Of a stretch of DNA of 41,574 nucleotides, positions 942 to 32,345 are shown piece by piece (position 1 is the first letter of the stretch; the number at the start of each line of letters is the position of its first letter). The stretch is from assembly GCA_025062155.1 (NCBI GenBank), contig JANXAM010000022.1, positions 1 to 41,574 of the forward strand, written 5' to 3'. A program made the translations under genes and the position numbers. Under the pieces are notes generated by a model. It saw only the letters and a program-made list of their open reading frames with translations. It was not told where the DNA came from and made no database searches. The DNA is from Gloeomargarita sp. SKYB120. Lineage in GTDB: Bacteria; Cyanobacteriota; Cyanobacteriia; Gloeomargaritales; Gloeomargaritaceae.

Positions 942-1279
942 CAAGCTATGTACCAGACCGAAGAGATATTGTGTGGATTACGTTCAATCCTCAGGCGGGA
1001 CATGAGCAGGCAGGGCGACGGCCAGCGTTAGTGATATCACCCAAAGCGTACAATGCCAAAGTAGGTTTAGCGTTACTTTGCCCTATTACCAACCAGGTTA
1101 AGGGATATCCATTTGAGGTGCAAATTCCAGCCGGGCTAAAGGTATCGGGTGTCGTGCTATCAGATCAAGTCAGAAGTCTGGATTGGCGCGTTCGACAAGC
1201 AGTGTTCAGTTGTAAGCTGCCTATCAAACCCTTCAACGAAGTCATTGCCAAACTGCAAACGCTCATTCGCGCTTTGTAA
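938..1279 (+). CDS. mazF: MazF-type endoribonuclease toxin
   Basis: A protein of about 113 residues with the MazF/PemK fold. The RRDIVWITFNP start, the GHEQAGRRPALVIS segment with its conserved Arg-Pro, the LLCPIT strand, and the GVVLSDQVRSLDWR segment near 75-90 are all typical. These toxins are ribosome-independent, sequence-specific mRNA interferases. The GTG at 938 overlaps the mazE stop; a TTG at 935 is the other possible start. The 3' 120 bp overlap a convergent Trp-rich gene on the minus strand, an odd arrangement discussed in the findings. No frameshift is seen, so the toxin looks intact. Confidence 0.88.
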   Translation: MTSYVPDRRDIVWITFNPQAGHEQAGRRPALVISPKAYNAKVGLALLCPITNQVKGYPFEVQIPAGLKVSGVVLSDQVRSLDWRVRQAVFSCKLPIKPFNEVIAKLQTLIRAL

Positions 1280-1471
1280 CGATTGCCACCCCGGTTGCCA
1301 CAGGTTCCGGTCGCGCAATTGCTGGGCATTGACCCAAAACCGCACCTGGGGGTCGCACACCGCCACCAGCTCTACAAAGGTAAAACGCCCCTGGCGCTTG
1401 CAATTTTTCACCTGAAAATGTCGCCATCCCCACATCGGCTGCTGCGCCGTCCAAGCTGACCCGACCCTCAC
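1160..1471 (-). CDS. Trp-rich small protein, TIGR02450 family
   Basis: The core (GWRHFQVKN, FVELVAVCDPQVRFWVNA, LRDRNLWQPGWQSL) matches a short tryptophan-rich protein family known from cyanobacteria and marine bacteria, function unknown. A GTG at 1471 overlaps the stop of the upstream gene (GTGA on the minus strand) and gives a normal N-terminus RVGSAWTAQQP; an ATG at 1492 is the alternative. The conserved core ends near position 1273. The remaining 37 codons lie antisense to mazF and look like read-through rather than family sequence. The gene is the last of a three-gene minus-strand operon with the BioD-like and MBL-fold genes. Confidence 0.75.
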   Translation of the reverse strand: MRVGSAWTAQQPMWGWRHFQVKNCKRQGRFTFVELVAVCDPQVRFWVNAQQLRDRNLWQPGWQSLQSANERLQFGNDFVEGFDRQLTTEHCLSNAPIQTSDLI

Positions 1472-2538
1472 GCTGGACAAACCGCGTCCCATAAATTCAG
1501 CAATCGCTCTAAGTTCAGATGCTGGGCAATCATTTGTTGGACATATTGAATCTTCACGGGTTCTTGCAGCCGCACCCGCTCAAACGCCTGTTCGATAATC
1601 TCCACTGCCGTCAGGGTATCCATATCCACCCGCAAAATTGGCACCTCCATTTCTTCGGCGCGGGCGAGCACCATAGGGTCAGGGTCATTAGGACCTGTCA
1701 ACACCAAACATTGCGTTGATGCCTCTAACGCTGCCATTTGAATATCGGTACGGCCACTGCCGGTCACCACCACCATATTTACTCCCTGGCGGAAATAATC
1801 CAGCGCGGCGTTGACGCTCATGGCCCCGATGGACAGATGTTCCACCAGTAAATCTAGTCGTTCTGCACAACATAGCACTTGCGCCTGCAACCGCTCCGCC
1901 AGTTCCCCCACCCGTACACTGCGTAACAACCGGCTGCGCGGCAATATCCCTAGCACTGGAATTCCCCGTTGTTCCAGCATCGGCACCAGAATTTCCGGTA
2001 CGGATGGTTGGTCAGCCGGGACAGCATTCAGCAACACACCGATTAGGCGCGAACCCAGTTGTTCTTGGGCCATCAGCAACTCATCTACCACCATTAACGA
2101 TTCCACCCGCACCACCAGCAGCACGGCCCCATTGAGCACGTTCACCAGGCTTTTGAACCCTAGCCCAAAGCAATACCCCTCATAGAAATTCGCCGGCGCT
2201 TCCACCAGTAGGGCATCTGGGGTGGTCAGGTTTTGATAATCTGCCAACGCCGATGTCAAAGGCTGCACCTGCAACAAGCGCTCCGGTTGTTTGAGCCAAT
2301 CCTGGAGAAAAACTAGCGTTGGGGCAATGCAGTCAGCCGACAAACGTAAAACCTGCGCGGCTAACTGCCCATCCATATCCAGGGGAACCGGGTCCGTCGT
2401 CACTTGACTGTGACCAACCGGTTTGCCATAGCCAATCCGCCAGTGCCGGGCCTGTAGCTGTTGGGCAATACCTAAGATGGCCGTGGACTTGCCACTGTAT
2501 GCCTGAGTGGAACCGACGAATAGAAAGCGACGAGTCAC
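1468..2538 (-). CDS. BioD-like P-loop protein with DRTGG domain
   Basis: A 356-residue protein with an N-terminal dethiobiotin-synthetase-like P-loop domain (GSTQAYSGKST, residues 9-19; LLVEAPANFYEG near 111-122) and a C-terminal DRTGG domain from about 215 to 325. This is the layout of COG0857, the BioD-like domain otherwise found at the N-terminus of some phosphotransacetylases, here free-standing as usual in cyanobacteria. DRTGG domains are thought to be regulatory. The GTG start shares one base with the TAG of the upstream MBL-fold gene, so the two are co-translated. Substrate unknown; a role in biotin synthesis should not be assumed. Confidence 0.82.
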   Translation of the reverse strand: MTRRFLFVGSTQAYSGKSTAILGIAQQLQARHWRIGYGKPVGHSQVTTDPVPLDMDGQLAAQVLRLSADCIAPTLVFLQDWLKQPERLLQVQPLTSALADYQNLTTPDALLVEAPANFYEGYCFGLGFKSLVNVLNGAVLLVVRVESLMVVDELLMAQEQLGSRLIGVLLNAVPADQPSVPEILVPMLEQRGIPVLGILPRSRLLRSVRVGELAERLQAQVLCCAERLDLLVEHLSIGAMSVNAALDYFRQGVNMVVVTGSGRTDIQMAALEASTQCLVLTGPNDPDPMVLARAEEMEVPILRVDMDTLTAVEIIEQAFERVRLQEPVKIQYVQQMIAQHLNLERLLNLWDAVCPA

Positions 2539-3209
2539 TACCTCACCTGTGGAACGCCAGTCATCAGACGCTCCCTGACCTGATCATACCAATCTGTTGG
2601 GGAATTGACCGCTAGATAGCCGCGCCCCCGCAAAAATCCCGTGTGCGCCCCCGGACAAATATATTGCACAGGTCGAGCGCCGAGCCAGTTTCTGAGCGTC
2701 TCCAAACTGCGTTGTTGCCGGGGCCAGTGAAAGGTTTTGCGCGTGCGATACAGTCTCAGTTCGCCCTGAGAATCAGGTAACAAATGCCGCCCAGTAAACA
2801 AAACACCCCCTAGCCGCTCTAGATAAATACAACTGCTGCCAGGACTATAACCCGGTGTCCAGATCAGGTTTAGGCCCGGTGCAACTTCAGCCGTTGCAGC
2901 AAACGGACGCACCCACACGCCGGGGTAGAGATAGGCTTCGTACTGCTGGGTGTAAACAGGGCACTGAAACCGCTGCTGCCAGCGCTCCACCCGGTCAGCC
3001 CCATCCCGTTGCGTGAGCAATAGATACTGAATCCCGCCTTGGGCCTGGCACCAGTCCTGAAACTCTGCCGCTGGACAATCCACCAGGACATTACCCGGTA
3101 AGTTCAGCGCTGCCCCCGCCATAAAATAGCTAGTACCACCGAGGGTGTGCCGGTTAGGGGGAAACGCCCAAATACCCTCAAGAATGAGCCTAGGAGAAGC
3201 CGATGACAT
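2538..3209 (-). CDS. MBL-fold protein with degenerate metal site
   Basis: A 223-residue protein related to metallo-beta-lactamase-fold hydrolases: LGGTSYFM and NVLVDCP near the N-terminus, then WTPGYSPGSS, GGVLFTGRHLL and ICPGAHTGF where the fold normally carries metal ligands. The HxHxDH motif is missing: LLLTQRDGADRV stands in its place. The usual GHTPGS histidine is Tyr, and the GD aspartate is Arg. Zinc hydrolysis is therefore doubtful. ATG 3209 is chosen because an AAGG lies about 7 bases upstream; a TTG at 3233 is possible. The start lies inside the divergent gene at 3203. First gene of the operon with the BioD-like gene. Confidence 0.75.
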   Translation of the reverse strand: MSSASPRLILEGIWAFPPNRHTLGGTSYFMAGAALNLPGNVLVDCPAAEFQDWCQAQGGIQYLLLTQRDGADRVERWQQRFQCPVYTQQYEAYLYPGVWVRPFAATAEVAPGLNLIWTPGYSPGSSCIYLERLGGVLFTGRHLLPDSQGELRLYRTRKTFHWPRQQRSLETLRNWLGARPVQYICPGAHTGFLRGRGYLAVNSPTDWYDQVRERLMTGVPQVR

Positions 3210-4540
3210 GGGTTGCCTTGGGATTGCTAGCAATGATGACCTTTCTCCTAGTCTGGCATTACGTCCGTCCCGTCAGCCGCACGCCCTGGTGGTTGCTGTG
3301 GTTGGTGTTAATGCTGCCGGGGCTGGTGGTGGGATGGTGGGTGTATCTCTACGGCCATCAACGGCCCCTGCCCTCTGTACTGGTCGCTGGCCCGTTTATC
3401 CTCAGCGGCTTACTCTATCTACTGCTGATGCAGCAAAACGGTCGCTTGCAATCAATAATTCCTTCCTCACTAACCCCCTCCCTATGGCAGCCAGAGGATT
3501 TAGCTGGTCTGCGGCAATGTTTTCCATCAGATGTGTACGCCTTACAACGACTGGAACCGCAGGGGGACATCGTGATTTGCCGGGGTCGCCTGCGTATGGA
3601 TGCGGCTCAGGCCTACCGGGTGGTGCAGCAACAAGTGGAAGCCCGCTGGGGACAACGGTTCTGGTTGCTGCTGGAATGCCTGTCCAACCATCAACCGGTC
3701 TTTATGGTGATACCCCGCCAGCCGGTGCGGCCCTCCACCTCTGTTTGGTTCATTGGCACCGCCAGTTGGGGGTTGGGGATAGTGCTACTGGGAATTATGC
3801 CGGCGCCTTGGCCCAAGGTTGAACCAATCCTATACACAGCCGGTATGGTGAGCATTCTGCTGGCGCGAGAAATTGGTCAACGCTGGGTGCTTCGTCGCTA
3901 CGGGGTGCCGGTGGCGTGGCCCTGGTGCCTACCGTTACTGTTCTGGCCGGGTGTGGTCGGCACCTACAGTCAAATGCAAGCGCTACTCCCCCACCGGCAA
4001 GCGGCAGTGGACCGAACGTTGGCAGGGGTAGCTGGGAGCCTGGCAGTGGCGCTACCGTTGCTGGCTTGGGGACTTGCCCATTCCCACTGGGCATCAGGGG
4101 GTCTCTCGCCGGAGTATTCTTTACTGCTGTGGGGCATGTGTCGCCTGGTCTGGGGGCGGGAATGGCCGCTGGACATGGGTTTACATCTACACCCACTGGC
4201 GGCTGCGGCTCTGACTGGCTTGGGACTGGTGGCCTTGCAACTGGTGCCGGTGGGTCGGTTGGACGGGGGACGCCTGCTCCAAGGGCTACTAGGACGACGC
4301 GCGGCTGGGATGGGGGGATGGGTCGCTAAGGGATTGCTACTGCTGGTGGCGTGGCGTCTGCAACCTTGGCTGTGGGGATGGGCTATCTTGTTATGTTTTA
4401 TCCCAACGCTGCCGCCGCCAGTCTTGAACGACCTGACAGAACCCAATCACTGGCGGGATGGCTTCGCGATTGCGACCTGGGGATTGGCACTCGCCATTAT
4501 CCTACCGGCGCCGTTTGGGGGGGCCATGCCTGGGTGGTAG
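3203..4540 (+). CDS. Site-2 protease-like membrane protein without HExxH
   Basis: A 445-residue multi-pass membrane protein of the M50/EGY-like group. Two N-terminal membrane segments (about 4-20 and 29-49) precede a soluble domain (about 95-175, with CFPSDVYALQRLE and VICRGRLR as in EGY-type proteins), then a membrane core. At the HELGH site it reads AREIGQ, so both zinc-binding histidines are gone while the Glu stays. The NPDG-like site reads PVGRLDGG and keeps its Asp. The rest of the core (TYSQMQALLPHRQAAVD, LAGVAGSLAVALPLLAWGL) fits well. ATG 3203 has a GGAGA six bases upstream. Probably a non-proteolytic homologue, like plant EGY3. Its 3' end overlaps gldA by 44 bp. Confidence 0.82.
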   Translation: MTWVALGLLAMMTFLLVWHYVRPVSRTPWWLLWLVLMLPGLVVGWWVYLYGHQRPLPSVLVAGPFILSGLLYLLLMQQNGRLQSIIPSSLTPSLWQPEDLAGLRQCFPSDVYALQRLEPQGDIVICRGRLRMDAAQAYRVVQQQVEARWGQRFWLLLECLSNHQPVFMVIPRQPVRPSTSVWFIGTASWGLGIVLLGIMPAPWPKVEPILYTAGMVSILLAREIGQRWVLRRYGVPVAWPWCLPLLFWPGVVGTYSQMQALLPHRQAAVDRTLAGVAGSLAVALPLLAWGLAHSHWASGGLSPEYSLLLWGMCRLVWGREWPLDMGLHLHPLAAAALTGLGLVALQLVPVGRLDGGRLLQGLLGRRAAGMGGWVAKGLLLLVAWRLQPWLWGWAILLCFIPTLPPPVLNDLTEPNHWRDGFAIATWGLALAIILPAPFGGAMPGW

Positions 4541-5588
4541 TCCCTAGTGCCTGCATCACCTGAGCGGTGGTCACTGGAAAGGGCAAACGGTGGATGTCGC
4601 TAGCGGGTTGACAAATCCGTTCGGCAAGGACCCGGAGTTCGTCCGTGGGTAAATCACCCAAACCCAATTCTGCCAGTGTGCAGGGCAACCCAATTTGTTT
4701 GTACAACGTTAGTAATTGCCCCCGAGCAATGCCCGCCAACCGATACCCCTGCATTTCCTCTAAACGCAATTGCACCAGGATACCAAAGGCCACCTTTTCC
4801 CCGTGCAACCAGCGATGGGTCGCTGGCCAATAGGTCAACCCGTTGTGCACAGCATGAGCCGCCACTGTACGACAGGGAGCGCCACCGAGGCCCCCAACCA
4901 AGCCCGCCATTAACACTGTGGCATCCACCACCTGTTCCCACACGTCGCTGCCCGGTGCTGTCAAGGCTGCCGTCGCTTTTTGCAAGAGGATGTCCCGCAG
5001 TACCCGCGCCTGCTGAACCGCCATCACCACTGGTGTTTCGGCTGATTGCCCCGCACTGACGGACGCCTCGTACCACTTGGCCAGTGCATCTCCAATGCCG
5101 GCGACTAAAGTCCGTTGGGGAGCCGTTTGCACTAGGTCGTAGTCCAGGAGCAACCAAATTGGACACCGGCGCAGCGGTACATCGTACTGGAAAGCTCCCA
5201 TTTCGGAATAGATGTTGCTGAGGGCTGTCCAGGCCGCACAAGTTGCCCCTGACGTGGGGATGGTCACCACTGGTAAATCACAGTCATGGGCCACCAGTTT
5301 TCCCATATCCAAGGCTTTGCCGCCGCCGCAGGCCAACACGCCATCAATTCGCTCAGTCGTTACTCGTTGTCCCAAAGTACGGCGCAGGTTCTCCGTGCAT
5401 TCCTTAACGGCGACCGCCTGCACCGGATAAATCCCTGCGGCCTGTAACTGGGGTTGCACCAGCGATAGCGCCGTTTGGCCCCCCACTAGTAACCAGCGTT
5501 GGCCAAGAGAGCGCAACTGGTGGCCGTATTGACTGAGTAACTGCCGTCCCCGCAACACTCGCCAGGGCGCTACCAGTAATTCCGACAT
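4497..5588 (-). CDS. Glycerol dehydrogenase-like iron/zinc alcohol dehydrogenase
   Basis: A 363-residue protein of the GldA branch of group III metal-dependent alcohol dehydrogenases. The NAD-binding GGGKALDMGK loop is at 88-97. The metal ligands are visible: Asp in GIGDALAKWYEA (D167), His in AAHAVHNGL (H245/H248) and His in LHGEKVAFG (H262). The family oxidises glycerol or related polyols with NAD, or reduces aldehydes; the real substrate here is not shown. It lies 11 bp downstream of the ycf51-type gene on the same strand and probably shares its transcript. It converges with the protease-like gene, with 44 bp shared. Confidence 0.82.
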   Translation of the reverse strand: MSELLVAPWRVLRGRQLLSQYGHQLRSLGQRWLLVGGQTALSLVQPQLQAAGIYPVQAVAVKECTENLRRTLGQRVTTERIDGVLACGGGKALDMGKLVAHDCDLPVVTIPTSGATCAAWTALSNIYSEMGAFQYDVPLRRCPIWLLLDYDLVQTAPQRTLVAGIGDALAKWYEASVSAGQSAETPVVMAVQQARVLRDILLQKATAALTAPGSDVWEQVVDATVLMAGLVGGLGGAPCRTVAAHAVHNGLTYWPATHRWLHGEKVAFGILVQLRLEEMQGYRLAGIARGQLLTLYKQIGLPCTLAELGLGDLPTDELRVLAERICQPASDIHRLPFPVTTAQVMQALGTTTQAWPPQTAPVG

Positions 5589-5599
5589 GGACGAACCTA

Positions 5600-6139
5600 C
5601 TAGGAACCCGAGTGGTTGGCTGCGACCCGCGCTAGGGCCTGAGTATCCAATTCTATCACCATGGCTGGGTCTTCTCGCTGGCGCAACGACCGCCGGACGT
5701 AGCCCAAATACACCGGTTCCGTCACGCCTGGTTCGGGATGCAGCAATGTCCGCGCTCGGATAGTCAGCACGGGTTCTCCTTTTGCCAAGCGCCCGTAGGA
5801 AAACAAATCGTTAGCGGCCTGTTGCAGGGTGGCATGCAATTGGGTAGGGGTGATGTCGCGGGGCACTGCAATCACGGCCTGCGTACCGCCATTGTCATAC
5901 ACTGTGGTATAGCGAACGGCATCTGGCAAAACGGTACGGGTCACAGGTGTTAACCCCAGAGCAAAAAGGCCGCCGGTCAACACCAGCATAAACGCGGTGA
6001 TCCCCACCAGGCGAAAGCGAATCCCCCACTGGGCGATAAACGCCACTGCCGTCACAACACCCATGAACAGGGTCAGTCCCCCTAGCCAGCGAGCTGCCTG
6101 GGCAAATTCAGCAGGTGTGGGAATGGTGACGGCCAGCAT
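5600..6139 (-). CDS. Ycf51 family membrane protein (DUF2518)
   Basis: A 179-residue protein with two hydrophobic segments near 18-40 and 43-65, then a conserved soluble domain containing VRYTTVYDNGGTQAVIAVP, LQQAANDLFSYGRL, LTIRARTLLHPEPGV and PVYLGYVRRSLRQRED. This matches the Ycf51/DUF2518 family of cyanobacteria and some red-lineage plastids, whose function is unknown. It is full length and precedes the GldA-like gene with an 11-bp gap, probably forming a two-gene operon. No regulation site is evident. Confidence 0.8.
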   Translation of the reverse strand: MLAVTIPTPAEFAQAARWLGGLTLFMGVVTAVAFIAQWGIRFRLVGITAFMLVLTGGLFALGLTPVTRTVLPDAVRYTTVYDNGGTQAVIAVPRDITPTQLHATLQQAANDLFSYGRLAKGEPVLTIRARTLLHPEPGVTEPVYLGYVRRSLRQREDPAMVIELDTQALARVAANHSGS

Positions 6140-6172
6140 CCAGCGATTTTCCAGCGCTACTATGAGCTTAAC

Positions 6173-6838
6173 TCAGTAGCGAATCTCCAGACGTACTTGC
6201 GCTCGCACCACTTGCTCACCGCCGAGGATGGGGGTACTCAGGCGCTGCTGGGCAAAGGCCACCGGTTCGGGCACCGGTAGAGTGGTACTGAGAATTTGGA
6301 CATTGATCACCTCTTTAGGCGCCAGCTGCAGGGCTGCTAACACCGTTTGGGCTTGTCGTTGAGCATCTTGGGCGGCTAGTTGCAGGGCTTGAGTGCGTCC
6401 CTGTTCGAGGGCTGTATCGCTGGCAATGAATTGCAGCCGAGCAATTTGATTCGCACCTTGGGCAATCAGTTCATCCACCACAGCGCCGGCCTGGGAGATG
6501 GGTAGGCGAAATTCGACAGCGCTGCGACCAAGAAACCCCAGGAGTTGCTGACGTTCGCCGTAAAGCGGGCTTAAACTCAAGGCCGTGGTGTTAATTTTTT
6601 CAGCCTGGCGTTGCTGGAGCGTCCGCACCAGACGATTCATGCGCTGGGCGATTTCCGTTTGGACTTGGTTAGCGCTGTTGCCGCGAATTTCCACTCCCAC
6701 TTCCACTTCCGCTAGTTGGGTGGGCAACGTCACCATTCCCTGACCCGTTACTTGCAAAACCCGTTCTTTCATTTCTGCCCAGGCCACCGGTTGCCACAAC
6801 CCTACCAGCAAAACACTCAATCCCAGCCATCGCTTCAT
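6173..6838 (-). CDS. SIMPL-domain (DUF541) periplasmic protein
   Basis: A 221-residue exported protein. The ATG at 6838 is chosen over an upstream start at 6919 because it has AGGAGA seven bases before it and opens a clean signal peptide (MKRWLGLSVLLVGLWQPVAWA, cleavage before EMKE). The mature part is a SIMPL/DUF541 domain (VTGQGMVTLPTQLAEVEVGVE start, NTTALSLSPLY, DELIAQGANQIARLQF). Members form oligomers in the bacterial envelope, and their role is poorly known, with links to oxidative stress. The gene stands alone, divergent from queG with an 86-bp gap. Confidence 0.82.
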   Translation of the reverse strand: MKRWLGLSVLLVGLWQPVAWAEMKERVLQVTGQGMVTLPTQLAEVEVGVEIRGNSANQVQTEIAQRMNRLVRTLQQRQAEKINTTALSLSPLYGERQQLLGFLGRSAVEFRLPISQAGAVVDELIAQGANQIARLQFIASDTALEQGRTQALQLAAQDAQRQAQTVLAALQLAPKEVINVQILSTTLPVPEPVAFAQQRLSTPILGGEQVVRAQVRLEIRY

Positions 6839-6924
6839 GTCCGTCTCTCCTACACCACCGTTTTTCCAGACCGCCAGCCCTAGCAGGGAGTTCCGTAGAA
6901 TAGGGACAGCGGGAGCCAACGCCG

Positions 6925-7845
6925 ATGATAAACGCCCAGCAAGTCAAAGAACAAGCGCGGCGATTAGGGTTTCATCGGGTAGGGATTGCCGCGGTTGAAC
7001 CAGCACCCCAATCGCACCTGGCTGAGTGGTTAGCGGCAGGCTACCACGCCGACATGGACTGGTTAACCGATGCGCGGCGGCAACGGATTGAAAAGGTATT
7101 GCCCGGGGTGAAGTCGGTAATTGCCGTGGCGATGAACTACTACTGGCCAGGGGAGCAACCCCAGGTTGGGAAAATCGCTCGCTACGCCTGGGGCCGGGAC
7201 TATCACCGGGTGGTGGGGCGACGACTGAAAGCGCTGGCGCAATGGCTCAAACAACAAGTCCCCGACTGTGAAACCCGTATTTATGTTGATACGGGGCCGG
7301 TGGAAGACAAACTCTGGGCAGAATGGGCCGGTGTAGGCTGGGTAGGGAAAAATGCCAATCTCATCACGCGGCAGTACGGTTCCTGGGTGGTGCTGGGGGA
7401 AGTGTTGACCACGTTGGCACTGACACCCGACCCACCTCACACGGAACACTGCGGCACCTGCACCCGCTGTTTAGAGGCTTGCCCAACCGGAGCCATTGTC
7501 CGTCCCTTCGTGGTGGATAGCCGTCGTTGTATCGCCTATCACACGATTGAAAACCGGCAACCGGAACTGCCTGCAGAAATCGTCCCCCGTTTAGAAGGGT
7601 GGTTGGCAGGTTGTGACATTTGCCAGGAAGTTTGTCCCTGGAACCAGCGTTTTGCCCAACCTACTGATGTAGACGAATTCCAACCCCGCTTACCCCCCTT
7701 ATCCCTCAAGGCATGGGCGGAAATGGATACCGACACCTGGGACCGCACGTTAAGGGGGTCGGCCCTGCGACGGATTAAACCGGCCATGTGGCGACGGAAT
7801 GCACGGGCGTTGTTAAGTCGTTGTGCGAGCGCTACGCCGCCTTAA
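6925..7845 (+). CDS. queG: Epoxyqueuosine reductase
   Basis: A 306-residue enzyme for the last step of queuosine synthesis, reducing epoxyqueuosine to queuosine in the tRNA wobble position using cobalamin and two 4Fe-4S clusters. The cluster ligands are clear: C176-x2-C179-x2-C182-x3-C186 followed by Pro, and C202, C230-x2-C233-x3-C237. The conserved [10 protein letters not shown] (Asp122 near the active site) and GVGWVGKN are present. ATG 6925 has a GGGAG about 10 bases upstream. Length is slightly short, since the HEAT tail of longer homologues is absent. A dispersed repeat copy lies just after the stop. Confidence 0.93.
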
Positions 7846-21074: not shown

Positions 21075-22049
21075 ATGACCCTTAACCAATGGCAACGCCG
21101 GCATTTGCTGTCACTGGCGGATTTGGCCCCCTGGGAATACGACATCATTTTGCAAACCAGCGCCAGTTTTGCCGAAGTGCTCACCCGTCCCACCCCCAAA
21201 GTGCCGACATTGCAGGGGAAAGTGGTGGCACTGATGTTTTTCGAGTCATCCACCCGCACCCGCAACAGCTTTGAACTGGCCGCCAAGCGCCTGTCTGCCG
21301 ATACGCTGAATTTCTCTCCTGGCACATCAGCGCTCAACAAGGGGGAGACCATCCTGGACACGGCCAAAACCCTGCTGGCCATGAACACCAACCTGATGGT
21401 GATCCGGCATGCGGCTAGTGGCGTCCCCCAGCAAATTGCCCAGGAGTGCGACCGCCTGGGAACGAATGTGGGCGTGATCAACGCTGGCGATGGTCAACAC
21501 GAGCATCCCACCCAAGCGCTACTGGATTTATTCACCCTGTGCCAGCAATTGTCCGGTTCATCCCCGCAGCTGCAGGCGTTACAAAACCGCAAGGTCGTAA
21601 TTGTGGGCGACATTCTCCATTCACGGGTGGCCCGTTCCAACATTTACAGCTTGCGCGCTGCTGGTGCGGATGTGCATTTGGCTGGCCCCCCCACGCTGGT
21701 GCCCCGAGAACTGGAAGCTCTGGGAGTCCACGTGCATTGGGAATTGGCCCCTGCCTTAAAAGACGCTGATTTTGTCATGGCCTTGCGGTTACAGACCGAA
21801 CGGATGCAGCAGCATTTTTTGCCGACCTTGCGGGAGTATCATCGGGAGTATGGCATCACCCGTGAACGGTTAGCGCTCTGTCGTCCCCACGTCAAACTGC
21901 TGCATCCTGGCCCAGTGAATCGAGGTGTGGAAGTCACGTCGGATTTGGTCGATGACCCGCAGATCAGTTTGGTGCCGCACCAAGTGCAAAACGGCGTTGC
22001 CGTGCGCATGGCGGTTTTGTATTTGCTTGGCACAGCGAAAATAACCTGA
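21075..22049 (+). CDS. pyrB: Aspartate carbamoyltransferase catalytic chain
   Basis: A 324-residue enzyme of pyrimidine synthesis joining carbamoyl phosphate and aspartate. The carbamoyl phosphate loop is S58-S-T-R-T-R63 in [38 protein letters not shown] and [10 protein letters not shown] are all present. The length is that of a catalytic chain without a fused regulatory part. No pyr operon surrounds it. After the stop, about 110 bp hold no gene. Confidence 0.95.
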
Positions 22050-22758: not shown

Positions 22759-23700
22759 ATGTCTCCCACTTTGCTGCCGGCCCATCCCGAACCATTGACT
22801 CCAGCAACAGCCCATCCCGTCTGGGTGTATTTGAGCCGTCTCAGCCCGGGGTCGCGGCGCACGCTGCTGGAAGCGCTGGAATTGATGGCCCGCTGGATGA
22901 GTCAAGCCCAGTGGGGGGCGCTGGAATTTCCCTGGTGGCAATTGCGATATCCCCACACGACGGCGTTGCGGGCTTGGTTGGTGGAGCGGTACGCCCCGGC
23001 GACGGTCAATAAACAACTAGCAGCACTACGCGGGGTCCTGCGGGAATGCTGGCGCTTGGGGTTGCTCTCGGCGGAAGACTATCACCGTACTGTAGATGTG
23101 CCGACGGTCAGGGGGCAACGGCTTTTGCGGGGACGGGTGGTCAGCGACGCCGAAATTAACGCCATTTTAACCCTATGCCAGCAAGAAAACAGTCCAGCGG
23201 GGTACCGGGATGCGGCATTGTTTGCGCTACTGGTGGGGTCGGGAGTGCGGCGGGCGGAAGTCGTAGCGTTGGAACTGTCGGATTACGAACCGGCTACCCA
23301 TCGTTTGCATGTGCGAGCCGGCAAGGGCAACAAAGACCGCTGGGTGTACCTAGCACCAGGAGCAGAGGTGTGGCTGCAACGCTGGTTAGCGGTACGGGGA
23401 CGGGAAGTGGGGCCGCTGTTGTGCCCGGTGAATCGCTGGGGCCAGGTGATTGTGCGCCGGATGACGGACCAGGCGGTGTTGCATATCCTGAGCAAACGGG
23501 CGCACCAGGCCGGTCTAGCAGCGTTTAGCCCCCACGATTTACGCCGGACATTTATTTCTAACTTGCTGGATGCAGGCGTGGATGTGGCCACTGTACAGAA
23601 ACTGGCGGGTCATGCCCAGGTGCAAACGACGATTCGCTACGACCGGCGCGAGGAACAAACCAAGCAACTGGCGGTTGCTCGCCTGCGTATTCATCATTGA
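22759..23700 (+). CDS. Tyrosine recombinase (XerC/D-like)
   Basis: A 313-residue site-specific recombinase. An N-terminal core-binding domain (about 20-110) is followed by the catalytic domain with all key residues: R164 in SGVRRAEV, K189 in RAGKGNKDR, H259-x2-R262 in SPHDLRRTF, H285 in AGHAQVQTT and the nucleophile Y294 in TIRYDRR. It could be the chromosome dimer resolvase or an integrase of a lost element; it borders a patch of insertion sequences. No dif or att site was recognised beside it. The frame is intact. Confidence 0.87.
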   Translation: MSPTLLPAHPEPLTPATAHPVWVYLSRLSPGSRRTLLEALELMARWMSQAQWGALEFPWWQLRYPHTTALRAWLVERYAPATVNKQLAALRGVLRECWRLGLLSAEDYHRTVDVPTVRGQRLLRGRVVSDAEINAILTLCQQENSPAGYRDAALFALLVGSGVRRAEVVALELSDYEPATHRLHVRAGKGNKDRWVYLAPGAEVWLQRWLAVRGREVGPLLCPVNRWGQVIVRRMTDQAVLHILSKRAHQAGLAAFSPHDLRRTFISNLLDAGVDVATVQKLAGHAQVQTTIRYDRREEQTKQLAVARLRIHH

Positions 23701-23750: not shown

Positions 23751-24140
23751 ATGGCGTTGGTGCTACCGGCAGACCGGCGGTCGTTCGGTCAGATTGAGCA
23801 GTTTTTGCAACAGGATGAAATTGTGGCCTTGCCCATGGCAACAGTCTATGGCTTAGTGGCGAAGGGAACGTCTCCGACAGCCGTAGCGAAATTGCGAGCT
23901 GTAAGGCATTTGCCTGCTCCCCAACCGTTAACCATTTTGACCAACAGTGTTGCTCATGCCGAAACCGTCGCCGCATTGACACCCCCAGCCCGGCAAATGC
24001 TCAGTCATTTTCCTTATCCCGTGACGATGATTGTGCCGGCAAAACCCCATCTCGACCCCCTGATTACGGATGGTTTTGCATCAGTTTTTCTCGCTTGCCC
24101 AGATGCTTTTATAGCTAAGCTGACAAAGGTTGACATATAA
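23751..24140 (+). pseudogene. YrdC/Sua5-type gene truncated by IS630 insertion
   Basis: The first 120 residues match the YrdC/Sua5/TsaC family, which makes threonylcarbamoyl-AMP for tRNA t6A: IVALPMATVYGLVAKG near 24-39, AVRHLPAPQPLTIL near 50-63 and PYPVTMIVPA near 88-97. At 24110 the IS630 terminal repeat begins; nine codons of it then run to a stop, removing the C-terminal third including the usual SxN region. The KxR motif reads RHL, so it may already have been a divergent paralogue. ATG 23751 has GAGAGGG upstream; an open frame back to 23697 is less likely. tsaD, of the same pathway, lies 1.2 kb downstream. A second intact tsaC elsewhere is assumed, not seen. Confidence 0.72.
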
Positions 24141-24907
24141 GACAGACAGCTTCATCCACGAGAGAACGTAGGTTCCGTTTGGTTATTGATCCACCGTTTT
24201 AGCCAAGACCACACCTGCTCAATTGGATTTAAATCAGGTGAATATCTCGGTAAATAAACCAAGCGAAACCCAGCCGCTTCCACGACCTGTCTCACCGCCG
24301 CATGGCTTTCCCAGGACCTATCGCTGGTAAAAGTCTCTCACTTAACCACCAGATGACTACCTGAGTGTCGCCATAGCCTATCCAAGTAAATGGTTCTATC
24401 ACACGCCCTGATGGGTAAGCCACCATCATGCTAACTCGTTCTCCACGATTAAACTCTCTCTCCTTATTCATCAATATCCCGGTAATCCACGCCAGATTGG
24501 TCCATCTAGACCACCTGCTCTGGTGGTATCTGCTCGATTAACTCACAGTAAGCCTGTCGCTCTTAGAAATACGCTTTTTTGTGGGTATAGCCTATCTTTT
24601 GCAGGGCCTTAGCTCACACCGAAGTGAGCGGCCATCTCCCGTTAATCCACAAACTACTGGAATTCTTCTAGGTCTTTTAGCTTATGACAATGGCCTTTTT
24701 GATAGCCTTCCTTGGGGTGGACATCTCTTGTTTCTAACCCTTGTCTGAGCCAGCGTTTACCGTTCGATAGCTGACGTTTAGGAACTGACTGACTTCCACG
24801 ATGGCCTCTACCGCCTTCTTGCGCAAATCATAGTTATATAGTCTAGGCATTTTCTCACTCCCTAGCAACACGTTCATTATATGACAACCTTAAAAAGCTT
24901 AGCTGTA
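24110..24907 (-). mobile_element. IS630-family insertion sequence, decayed
   Basis: A 798-bp element bounded by 31-bp inverted repeats at 24110-24140 and 24877-24907 (25 of 31 match, TATAGCTAAGC versus TACAGCTAAGC outermost). Outer TA dinucleotides fit the IS630 target. Inside, on the minus strand, is a broken transposase. It is inserted into the YrdC-type gene on the left and abuts IS1-family sequence on the right. It is therefore nested among older debris, or a deletion removed the original right flank. Confidence 0.8.
24141..24850 (-). pseudogene. IS630 transposase pseudogene
   Basis: Translation of the minus strand in pieces gives MPRLYNYDLRKKAVEAI at the start, LQKIGYTHKKAYF, VVxMDQSGVDYRD (first catalytic Asp region), FNRGERVSMM, WLSERLLPAIGPGKAM and, in another frame, LVYLPRYSPDLNPIEQVW with the catalytic Glu. 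Several in-frame stops and frame changes break the gene. The stretch with the second Asp (normally MDNxxxH after GPGKA) is deleted. The enzyme is dead. Confidence 0.78.
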
Positions 24908-24911
24908 ATGC

Positions 24912-25309
24912 GACGAGATATGGTCGTTTTGCGACTCGAAAAAGCATCTCCAATGGCGCTGGCTGGTTCTAGCGAGAAAGACACGGATGATTGTCACGAC
25001 CTGTGTAGGGGATAGAAGTGTAGAGATGGCAAAAAGTTATGGAAGAGAGTGCCGCTTATTTGGCGAAAGCGGGCAAAATTTTATACTGATTGTTGGTCAG
25101 TTTATCGGAAGGTAATTCCGCAATCTCAACATGCAGCCAGTGCCAAAGGGAGTGGTAGGACGTCCCTGATTGAGTGCTTTAACAACACGCTTCGACAGCG
25201 AGTGAGTCACTTGACTATGGGAACTCCGTCCTTTTCTAAAAACCTAGAAAATCACATCGAAATTATATTCAACTTCATCCACCACTATAATGCATCATTA
25301 CTTACATAG
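24912..25309 (+). pseudogene. IS1-family transposase remnant, frameshifted
   Basis: The sequence reads DEIWSFCDSKKHLQW, then LARKTRMIV and GDRSVEMAK. After a one-base frame change near 25028 it continues LWKRVPLIWRKRAKFYTDCWSVY, IECFNNTLRQRVSHL, FSKNLENHI and YNASLLT to a stop at 25309. The IS1 catalytic D (DEIW), D (TDCW) and E (IECFNN) are all present, but the zinc-finger N-terminus is missing and the frame is broken. The left edge coincides with the end of the IS630 element. Confidence 0.75.
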
Positions 25310-25311
25310 CA

Positions 25312-25363
25312 CCACCCTGTAACCTAAGGAATGACCAGCATCAGCGACTTGGCCCTACTATAG
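25312..25363 (+). repeat. Dispersed repeat copy C before tsaD
   Basis: CCACCCTGTAACCTAAGG, then ATGACCAGCATCAGCGACTT and GGCCCTACTATAG. It closely matches copy D at 32346-32397, and the preceding TTACATAGCAC is shared by both. It ends three bases before the tsaD ATG, so it now forms the tsaD leader. Confidence 0.65.
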
Positions 25364-25365
25364 AG

Positions 25366-26427
25366 ATGCAGGCTCTGTTAGCAACCTTGACTGTGACCAC
25401 TGTTTTAGCCATCGAAACCAGTTGTGACGAAACGGCTGTCGCTCTGGTGCAAGACCGGCAGGTGCTCGCCGAAGCCGTGGCTTCCCAAATTCCCCAGCAT
25501 CAGGTGTACGGGGGGGTCGTTCCAGAAATCGCCTCGCGCCAGCATCTAGAGGTGATCAATTTTCTGATGGCCCAAGTGCAGGCCGAAACAGGCATTCGCT
25601 GGACGGATGTGGACGGCATCGCTGCGACCTGTGCGCCAGGGCTGGTGGGGGCCTTAAACGTGGGATTAACGGTGGCCAAAACCCTGGCAATCCTGCATCG
25701 GCGACCGTTGGTGGGCATTCACCATTTAGAAGGCCATATCTGCGCGGCATACCTAACGGAACCCGACCTGACGCCGCCTTTTTTGTGCCTGTTGGTTTCG
25801 GGGGGACATACGAGCTTGGTCGCAGTGCGGGACTGGCAGACCTACGAACCGTTGGGACAAACGCGGGATGATGCCGTTGGGGAAGCCTTTGACAAGGTGG
25901 CGCGGTTACTAGGGTTAGGCTATCCGGGCGGGCCGGCCATTGACCGCTTGGCTCAAACTGGGAACCCGCACGCCTTTGGGCTTCCAGAGGGCAAAATTTC
26001 CCTGCCCCAGGGCGGTTATCATCCCTACGACATGAGTTTCAGTGGGTTGAAAACTGCGGTCCGGCGTCTGGTGGAGCAACTCCCCCAGCCTTTACCGGTT
26101 GCAGATTTGGCCGCCAGTTTTCAGTACACTGTCGTGCAAACCCTGACCCGCCGTGCCATTCGGTGCGCCCTCGACCAGGACCTCAAAACCCTGGTGGTGG
26201 CTGGGGGTGTGGCCGCGAACCGGGAATTGCGGGCGACGATAACCGCAGCAGCGGCCCAGCACGGGATTCGCGTGGTGATTCCCCCCATGCGCTACTGCAC
26301 CGACAATGCCGCGATGATTGGGTGCGCCGGCGTCATTCGTCTATCCCAAGGGCAACAATCGCCGTTGAGTCTGGTCAGTCAATCGCGCTTGCCCTTGACC
26401 GCCGTGGCCAGTCTCTACGCGGCTTAG
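25366..26427 (+). CDS. tsaD: tRNA t6A transferase subunit TsaD
   Basis: A 353-residue ASKHA-fold protein that transfers the threonylcarbamoyl group to A37 of tRNAs reading ANN codons. Metal ligands H120-x3-H124 in [21 protein letters not shown] near 16-24, LVSGGHTSL near 143-151, [19 protein letters not shown] and the end motif [10 protein letters not shown] are present. Homologues usually begin just before [10 protein letters not shown], so the GTG at 25393 may be the real start and the ATG at 25366 an extension. Its upstream region has been replaced by IS1 debris and a repeat. Meets speA convergently, sharing 4 bp. Confidence 0.94.
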
Positions 26428-31969: not shown

Positions 31970-32042
31970 GCGCATCTATGGCTAAAAACATTTAGTCTGA
32001 CGTAGAATAAGGTGGATAGGTTAAGGGGTTACATCTATGCCT

Positions 32043-32233
32043 TATGTCACGGATCTATGTCGGGAAGCCACTGATGGATAGGGAGCTTTAACTTGGTTGC
32101 ATGAGTAGTTATTACTAGCAATTGGGCCTGGCAAAAAGATGGTGATGGACAATTTAGCGGTGGTAAGCTGATATGTTTGCCTAGATATGCGCCAGATTTG
32201 AATCCGATTGATTAAGCAAAAGATGCATAAGTT
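32043..32233 (+). pseudogene. IS630 transposase fragment
   Basis: Piecewise translation gives AIGPGKKMVMDNLAV, holding the second catalytic Asp, then after a frame break ICLPRYAPDLNPID, where the third acidic residue (normally Glu) reads Asp and a stop follows. Further stops lie upstream. The YSPDLNPIE-type motif makes the family assignment clear. Complementary to the minus-strand copy at 24141, which lost exactly the MDN segment kept here. Confidence 0.7.
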
Positions 32234-32345
32234 ACAGGTGAGTGCAATCGAAATCTGCAATCTTTGGCCAACGAAACTATCCGTAGCTGATGTCAAGTTT
32301 CTTAATTTTAGCTGTATAATGTAATTACATAGCACTACTGGGATA

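Follow-up and report, generated by a model that had tools for sequence, protein, structure and literature searches.

The window analysed here, a stretch of 41,574 nucleotides that constitutes contig C22 of the genome of Gloeomargarita sp. SKYB120 (G000), a cyanobacterium of the hot-spring type, carries the 5' part of a YrdC-like gene that ends in an IS630-family element and lies 1.25 kb away from tsaD. With a probability of about 85%, this stump represents a YrdC-fold paralogue, and not TsaC, that was broken by the IS630-family element and placed next to tsaD by an exchange between IS630 copies. The initial annotation had seen in the same arrangement an ancestral t6A cluster that is being dismantled. 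This view is contradicted by the gene order in related genomes, in which the intact gene follows an xerC-like gene while tsaD is located elsewhere, and by the neighbourhood in the window, which is a junction of insertion sequences. A false lead on the decay of a t6A cluster thereby gives way to a testable one.

Structure of the truncated gene and of the adjacent elements

The interval 23751-24140 of the window is a single open frame of 129 amino acids. Its first 121 codons (23751..24113, forward strand) were recognized as the 5' part of a YrdC-like gene of a clade devoid of the KxR/SxN tetrad by means of the Pfam model PF01300, the identity to the gene of Gloeomargarita sp. SKYG116 (G006, JANWVM010000002.1) and a phylogenetic tree, whereas the last nine codons are derived from the insertion sequence. 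Residues 18-118 matched the Sua5/YciO/YrdC superfamily model PF01300 with 64.1 bits (cut-off 25.1), and a profile search of the whole genome returned the stump with 63.6 bits, covering positions 2-110 of the 178 in the profile; this match is far above chance. At the DNA level, the stump is 98.75% identical to the intact gene of G006 up to position 24115, where the identity ends, and the corresponding protein identity is 97%. About 90 codons were lost from the 3' side. The missing part would encode residues 122-211 of the intact orthologue; a DNA search across the assembly did not detect it, and neither did tblastn against the loci retrieved from the own genome (best E 0.15). The initial annotation had described a YrdC frame that runs into an IS630 end, with the remainder missing before tsaD and with RHL at the position of the KxR motif. 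All three observations were confirmed, the last in the alignment, and the absence of the remainder extends to the rest of the assembly. The TsaC equivalog model TIGR00057 assigned 50.8 bits to the truncated protein, compared with a cut-off of 123.2, and a scan for promoters and terminators yielded signals at chance level.

The IS630-type terminal repeat starts at about position 24113, and the element extends to about 24904 on the reverse strand, bounded by AGCTAAGC and GCTTAGCT. G000 contains 55 matching pieces of this element, and its naming as IS630 relies on a reading of the repeats and of the DDE motif and not on a family model. No open reading frame of 80 amino acids or more is present between 24140 and 25049, indicating that the transposase gene of this copy is decayed. 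A TA dinucleotide is readable at the left flank of the element (TTTTA) and ahead of the adjoining IS1 part (TAATGCG); the original right flank is gone. The IS1 part, detected with the Pfam model DDE_Tnp_IS1 at about 24905-25316 on the forward strand, corresponds to the 3' half of an element of the IS1 family and lies between the stump and tsaD. The tsaD gene itself (25366..26427, forward strand) is intact and matched TIGR03723 with 420.3 bits (cut-off 296.1); according to an alignment with relatives, the GTG codon at 25393 is the more likely start. Over 1032 nucleotides, tsaD of the window differs from that of G006 by 24 nucleotides and one amino acid.

Gene order in relatives and the probable rearrangement at tsaD

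The original locus of the truncated gene is marked on its left side by a conserved pyrB-like carbamoyltransferase gene (21075..22049, forward strand; Pfam OTCace_N/OTCace) and by an xerC-like tyrosine recombinase gene (22759..23700, forward strand; Pfam Phage_integrase), which is the true conserved neighbour. The latter was found in eight of the 20 genomes searched, all eight from the same family, and the pyrB-like gene likewise precedes xerC in G001, G003, G006 and others. In G006, the segment 14586-24115 of the window is collinear at 98.75% identity and runs on into the intact gene encoding 211 amino acids, and G002 displays the same order at 74-80% identity. These two strains are the only other members of the genus with the gene, which follows xerC in both of them, with tsaD on a different contig. 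Within the genus, the gene is consequently present in three of seven genomes, one copy being broken; the remaining four (G001, G003, G004 and G005, the last only 83% complete) are without a YrdC gene after xerC. Relatives lacking any YrdC gene at this place had been named in the initial annotation as evidence against its view, and this situation applies to the four genomes, whereas two of the seven possess the intact gene there. A dispersed repeat of ~70 bases (L090:9840-9910) was observed directly after the intact gene of G006 and has about 20 related places in G000.

The region directly upstream of tsaD is occupied by a conserved block in G006 and G002. In G000, this block was found on another contig (C10:65775-70531), where it is followed by the 5' half of an IS1 element and then by an IS630 copy, while the order in the window is stump, IS630, 3' half of IS1 and tsaD. 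A full-length IS1 copy on contig C6 served to relate the two pieces: the one in the window corresponds to its positions 367-726 and the one on C10 (~330 bases) to positions 25-355, so that both are complementary halves. Their outer flanks, AGAACGGGACTA on C10 and CTGTAACCTAAGG in the window, are only a few bases apart in the tsaD upstream region of G006, with the exact placing rendered uncertain by a short tandem repeat in that region. A target-site duplication of IS1 was not found at the flanks compared with this region. The neighbourhood of tsaD in the window is thus an IS rearrangement junction.

The ancestral order at the locus was pyrB, a small gene, xerC and the YrdC-like gene, as the two relatives show. 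In the lineage of SKYB120, an IS1 element was located just upstream of tsaD, as the complementary halves on the two contigs show, and IS630 copies would have been present both at the YrdC-like gene and upstream of tsaD. An exchange between these copies may then have joined xerC and the stump to the IS630 element, the 3' half of IS1 and tsaD, which is the course of events suggested by both sides of the tsaD breakpoint. Such an exchange is the simplest route to the present arrangement. The partner product carrying the 3' end of the YrdC-like gene was not found in the assembly. A simple reciprocal crossover therefore does not account for everything, and one has to postulate an additional deletion or rearrangement. 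The arrangement resembles known IS630-mediated disruptions and rearrangements with respect to the IS end in the coding frame, the large number of copies and the location of breakpoints at IS ends, but differs from them by the decayed transposase of the window copy and the missing reciprocal product. The contig illustrates how an exchange between insertion sequences can produce misleading, operon-like neighbours; the position of the stump beside tsaD appears to be a matter of chance, the outcome of a common type of genome reshuffling that brought a poorly known family of proteins to light.

The intact t6A genes of the genome

The search with PF01300 across the genome detected two matches, namely the stump in the window and a gene on another contig (C34:9703-10212). 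The latter encodes a TsaC protein of 186 amino acids without internal stops (145.2 bits), carries KRR and SAN (in the context TTSAN) and falls into a cyanobacterial TsaC clade comprising 13 rows; this intact copy fits a role in the synthesis of TC-AMP from threonine, bicarbonate and ATP. TsaB was found on contig C21 with 94.3 bits (cut-off 69.3). Since TsaC, TsaB and TsaD are intact, the synthesis of t6A is unaffected by the truncation. The initial annotation had reasoned that either a second, intact copy must exist or the interrupted gene was a divergent paralogue. Both turned out to apply: the genome search returned the canonical copy, and the interrupted gene belongs to a different clade.

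A separate clade of YrdC-like proteins in cyanobacteria

A profile built from the window, G006 and G002 proteins was searched over 386 genomes of the phylum and revealed clear relatives, followed by a gap in the scores and then by ordinary TsaC, Sua5 and YciO proteins. In a tree of 54 rows, from which a partial sequence (G348) and a split one (G028) were left out, the interrupted gene fell into a separate clade of 18 rows beside TsaC and YciO, with a support of 100/100. The KxR/SxN tetrad is absent from all 17 full rows of this clade, neither motif being complete, whereas both motifs are present in each of the 13 members of the cyanobacterial TsaC clade. The arginine of KxR is replaced by L, F, W or G in each of the 17 rows, with the lysine retained in 16; the two intact orthologues display KHL and RRL at this position and SAQ in place of SxN. 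Moreover, the segment CPDxF stands where VRxPDH would be expected, and the C-terminus reads LPSH[LM]xK in 16 of the 17 full rows and LASHLMK in the remaining one. Application of TIGR00057 to six full members yielded 76.6-117.7 bits, in all six cases below the TsaC cut-off.

A second profile, generated from seven members of the clade, was used to search 388 genomes of the class, 22 of which contained the clade (20 full genes, the fragment in the window and the split copy of G028); this count leaves out G016, G027 and G434 with 99-108 bits, since the next scores are 173, that of the fragment in the window, and then values from 189 upwards. The sequences from G016 and G027 were located outside the clade in the 54-row tree, and that from G434 was set aside by its score. 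A conserved neighbourhood that could hint at a pathway was not seen in the 18 loci inspected, in which most shared clusters came from pairs of close relatives. The member in G028, from a distant cyanobacterial family, is split by about 1.1 kb (L209:6695-8514), and the insert encodes an open frame of 390 residues that was assigned to an IS630-type transposase by motif reading and not by a family search. The clade gene is intact in G098 and G232, which belong to the same genus as G028. Another member, assigned by eye and by identity outside the 54-row tree, is encoded on plasmid pSTA7437.01 of Stanieria cyanosphaera PCC 7437 (L210:4989-5624) and shares 47.6% identity with the G006 protein. The plasmid is typed as conjugative, and the protein (WP_015212053.1) is publicly annotated as L-threonylcarbamoyladenylate synthase (TsaC) even though it has no tetrad.

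Two other views of the family were rejected. A first tree with a branch of length 4.23 gave the appearance of a fast-evolving orphan limited to the genus, but the phylum-wide profile search and the second tree showed a wider clade. An origin from phages or plasmids was likewise discarded, with clade-like sequences, judged by identity, in none of nine phage records and in a single one, that of Stanieria, among the ten plasmid matches listed (of 55).

Comparison with TsaC/Sua5 and YciO

A published study uses the KxR/SxN tetrad to select orthologues of TsaC/Sua5 and regards YciO as a paralogue of TsaC without activity (PMC10321239). A paper from 2025 reports a TC-AMP activity of Escherichia coli YciO that is weaker by more than four orders of magnitude, argues for a role related to rRNA and describes the over-annotation of paralogues as a problem for YciO (PMC12506659). 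The new clade shares with TsaC/Sua5 (L-threonylcarbamoyladenylate synthase, COG0009, TIGR00057) a YrdC domain spanning the whole protein and a match to TIGR00057, but departs from it by the scores below the cut-off, the missing tetrad and the clade-specific CPDxF and LPSHxxK segments. With YciO, a putative RNA-binding protein, it has in common the status of a paralogue beside TsaC and the replaced arginine of KxR, but it forms a clade of its own, and YciO retains a segment of the IRVPDH type where the clade has CPDxF. A name for such a clade was not seen among the titles and abstract openings listed from an open-access library for YciO, TsaC/Sua5, YrdC and cyanobacteria.

For the intact gene, a dN/dS ratio of 0.107 (dS 1.26) was calculated between G006 and G002, close to the value of 0.09 for TsaC of the same pair, and the gene was under purifying selection before its disruption. 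Between the window and G006, the 121 codons of the stump differ by four synonymous and four non-synonymous changes (ratio 0.33), which are so few that the loss cannot be dated. The clade gene is dispensable, as four of the seven genus members are without it and the copy of G028 is interrupted by an IS630-like transposase frame. By analogy with YciO, the protein probably has a role other than TC-AMP synthesis; an accessory role in binding RNA or nucleotides, as proposed for YciO, is a tentative suggestion that we consider somewhat doubtful. E. coli YciO is devoid of the KxR arginine in the alignment and yet weakly active in TC-AMP formation according to that paper (PMC12506659), and the loss of the tetrad is therefore no proof of total inactivity. 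The protein lost from SKYB120 would be a non-essential accessory factor that kept the YrdC domain without the tetrad. An AlphaFold model of the intact protein had a mean pLDDT of 38.6 and was not used. We regard it as an even chance that the TsaC/Sua5/YciO superfamily of cyanobacteria includes a third functional class and that the stump is one of its dead members. This conserved class would serve a purpose other than t6A synthesis and would be characterized by a fixed C-terminal LPSH[LM]xK and by CPDxF; it would have been gained and lost repeatedly, hit by IS630-type elements in at least two lineages and mis-annotated as L-threonylcarbamoyladenylate synthase by current pipelines. A clade with a YrdC fold that has no tetrad, is kept by selection in scattered cyanobacteria and carries the TsaC label amounts to an over-annotation of the kind described for YciO.

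Alternative explanations

The short distance between stump and tsaD and the affiliation of its domain to the TsaC superfamily are what speaks for a dismantled tsaC-tsaD cluster with a t6A gene as the lost component. An ancestral cluster of this kind was rejected on the gene order in relatives: adjacency to tsaD is conserved in neither of the two genus members with the intact gene, tsaD is not among the clade neighbours in the 18 loci, and in a set of 39 genomes, a count limited by draft contigs, no relative carries tsaD and a member of the YrdC family less than 5 kb apart on the same contig, the TsaC-type copy of G031 being 6.7 kb away. As the interrupted gene has no tetrad and canonical TsaC is intact elsewhere, the combined explanation is extremely improbable. 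The assumption that the gene is a divergent YciO and not a member of a separate clade draws on the absence of the KxR arginine from all 19 YciO rows and on a weak profile match to YciO structures (E 0.004), but the clade stands outside that of YciO with maximal support, one genome (G147, L201) contains both a clade member and YciO, and the scores against PDB entries favour Sua5/TsaC (72.7 and 29.2 bits) over YciO (20.2 bits), all of which makes this assumption very unlikely.

The assignment as a YrdC-fold paralogue relocated by insertion sequences also has to be weighed against an artefact of assembly or binning, in which C22 would come from a co-occurring SKYG116-like population or would be a chimera formed through IS repeats. 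The assembly of SKYB120 is a draft of 91 contigs, 96.4% complete and 1.58% contaminated, and the join through ~1.2 kb of IS sequence rests on this draft. Over positions 1-31123, C22 shares 97-99% identity with G006, compared with about 77-80% for C34, C10 and C17, so that its place in this genome might be questioned; in addition, C6 holds a second copy, about 80% identical, of window region 1239-7814, and the same IS630 ends terminate several other contigs. On the other hand, the split IS1 element is shared by C10 (80% identity to G006) and C22 (97%) and ties both contigs to one genome, tsaD, the clade gene and the xerC homologue (the last at E <= 1e-60) are single-copy in G000, and tracts of high identity are also present inside C2, C9, C10 and C12. 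The longest exact word common to the IS region of the window and the other copies examined comprises 62 bases, so that a misjoin driven by repeats is less likely. Taken as a whole, an artefact is unlikely.

Mosaic identity to SKYG116

In comparison with G006, the synonymous divergence of G000 amounts to 0.034-0.045 in xerC and in the stump, but to 1.03 in TsaC. A comparison of 33 own loci and the window with 24 G006 loci, some of them overlapping, revealed a bimodal identity to SKYG116, with tracts at 96-99% amid 75-82% and switches inside contigs of both genomes; the tracts in C2, C9, C10 and C12 range from 96 to 98%. This mosaic looks like introgression between species or like chimeric MAGs, and it resembles the hybridization between species that has been reported for hot-spring cyanobacteria (PMC12755884). 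The second copies, about 80% identical, of genes from window region 1239-7814 are located at C6:27755-33007 and C35:20532-21529, with broken ends and flanking IS1 elements, and the duplicated genes include those for a QueG-like protein and a DRTGG-domain protein. Positions 31976-32321 of the window, where the near-identity to G006 ends, are occupied by a dispersed repeat, to which about 25 other sites of G000 are related.
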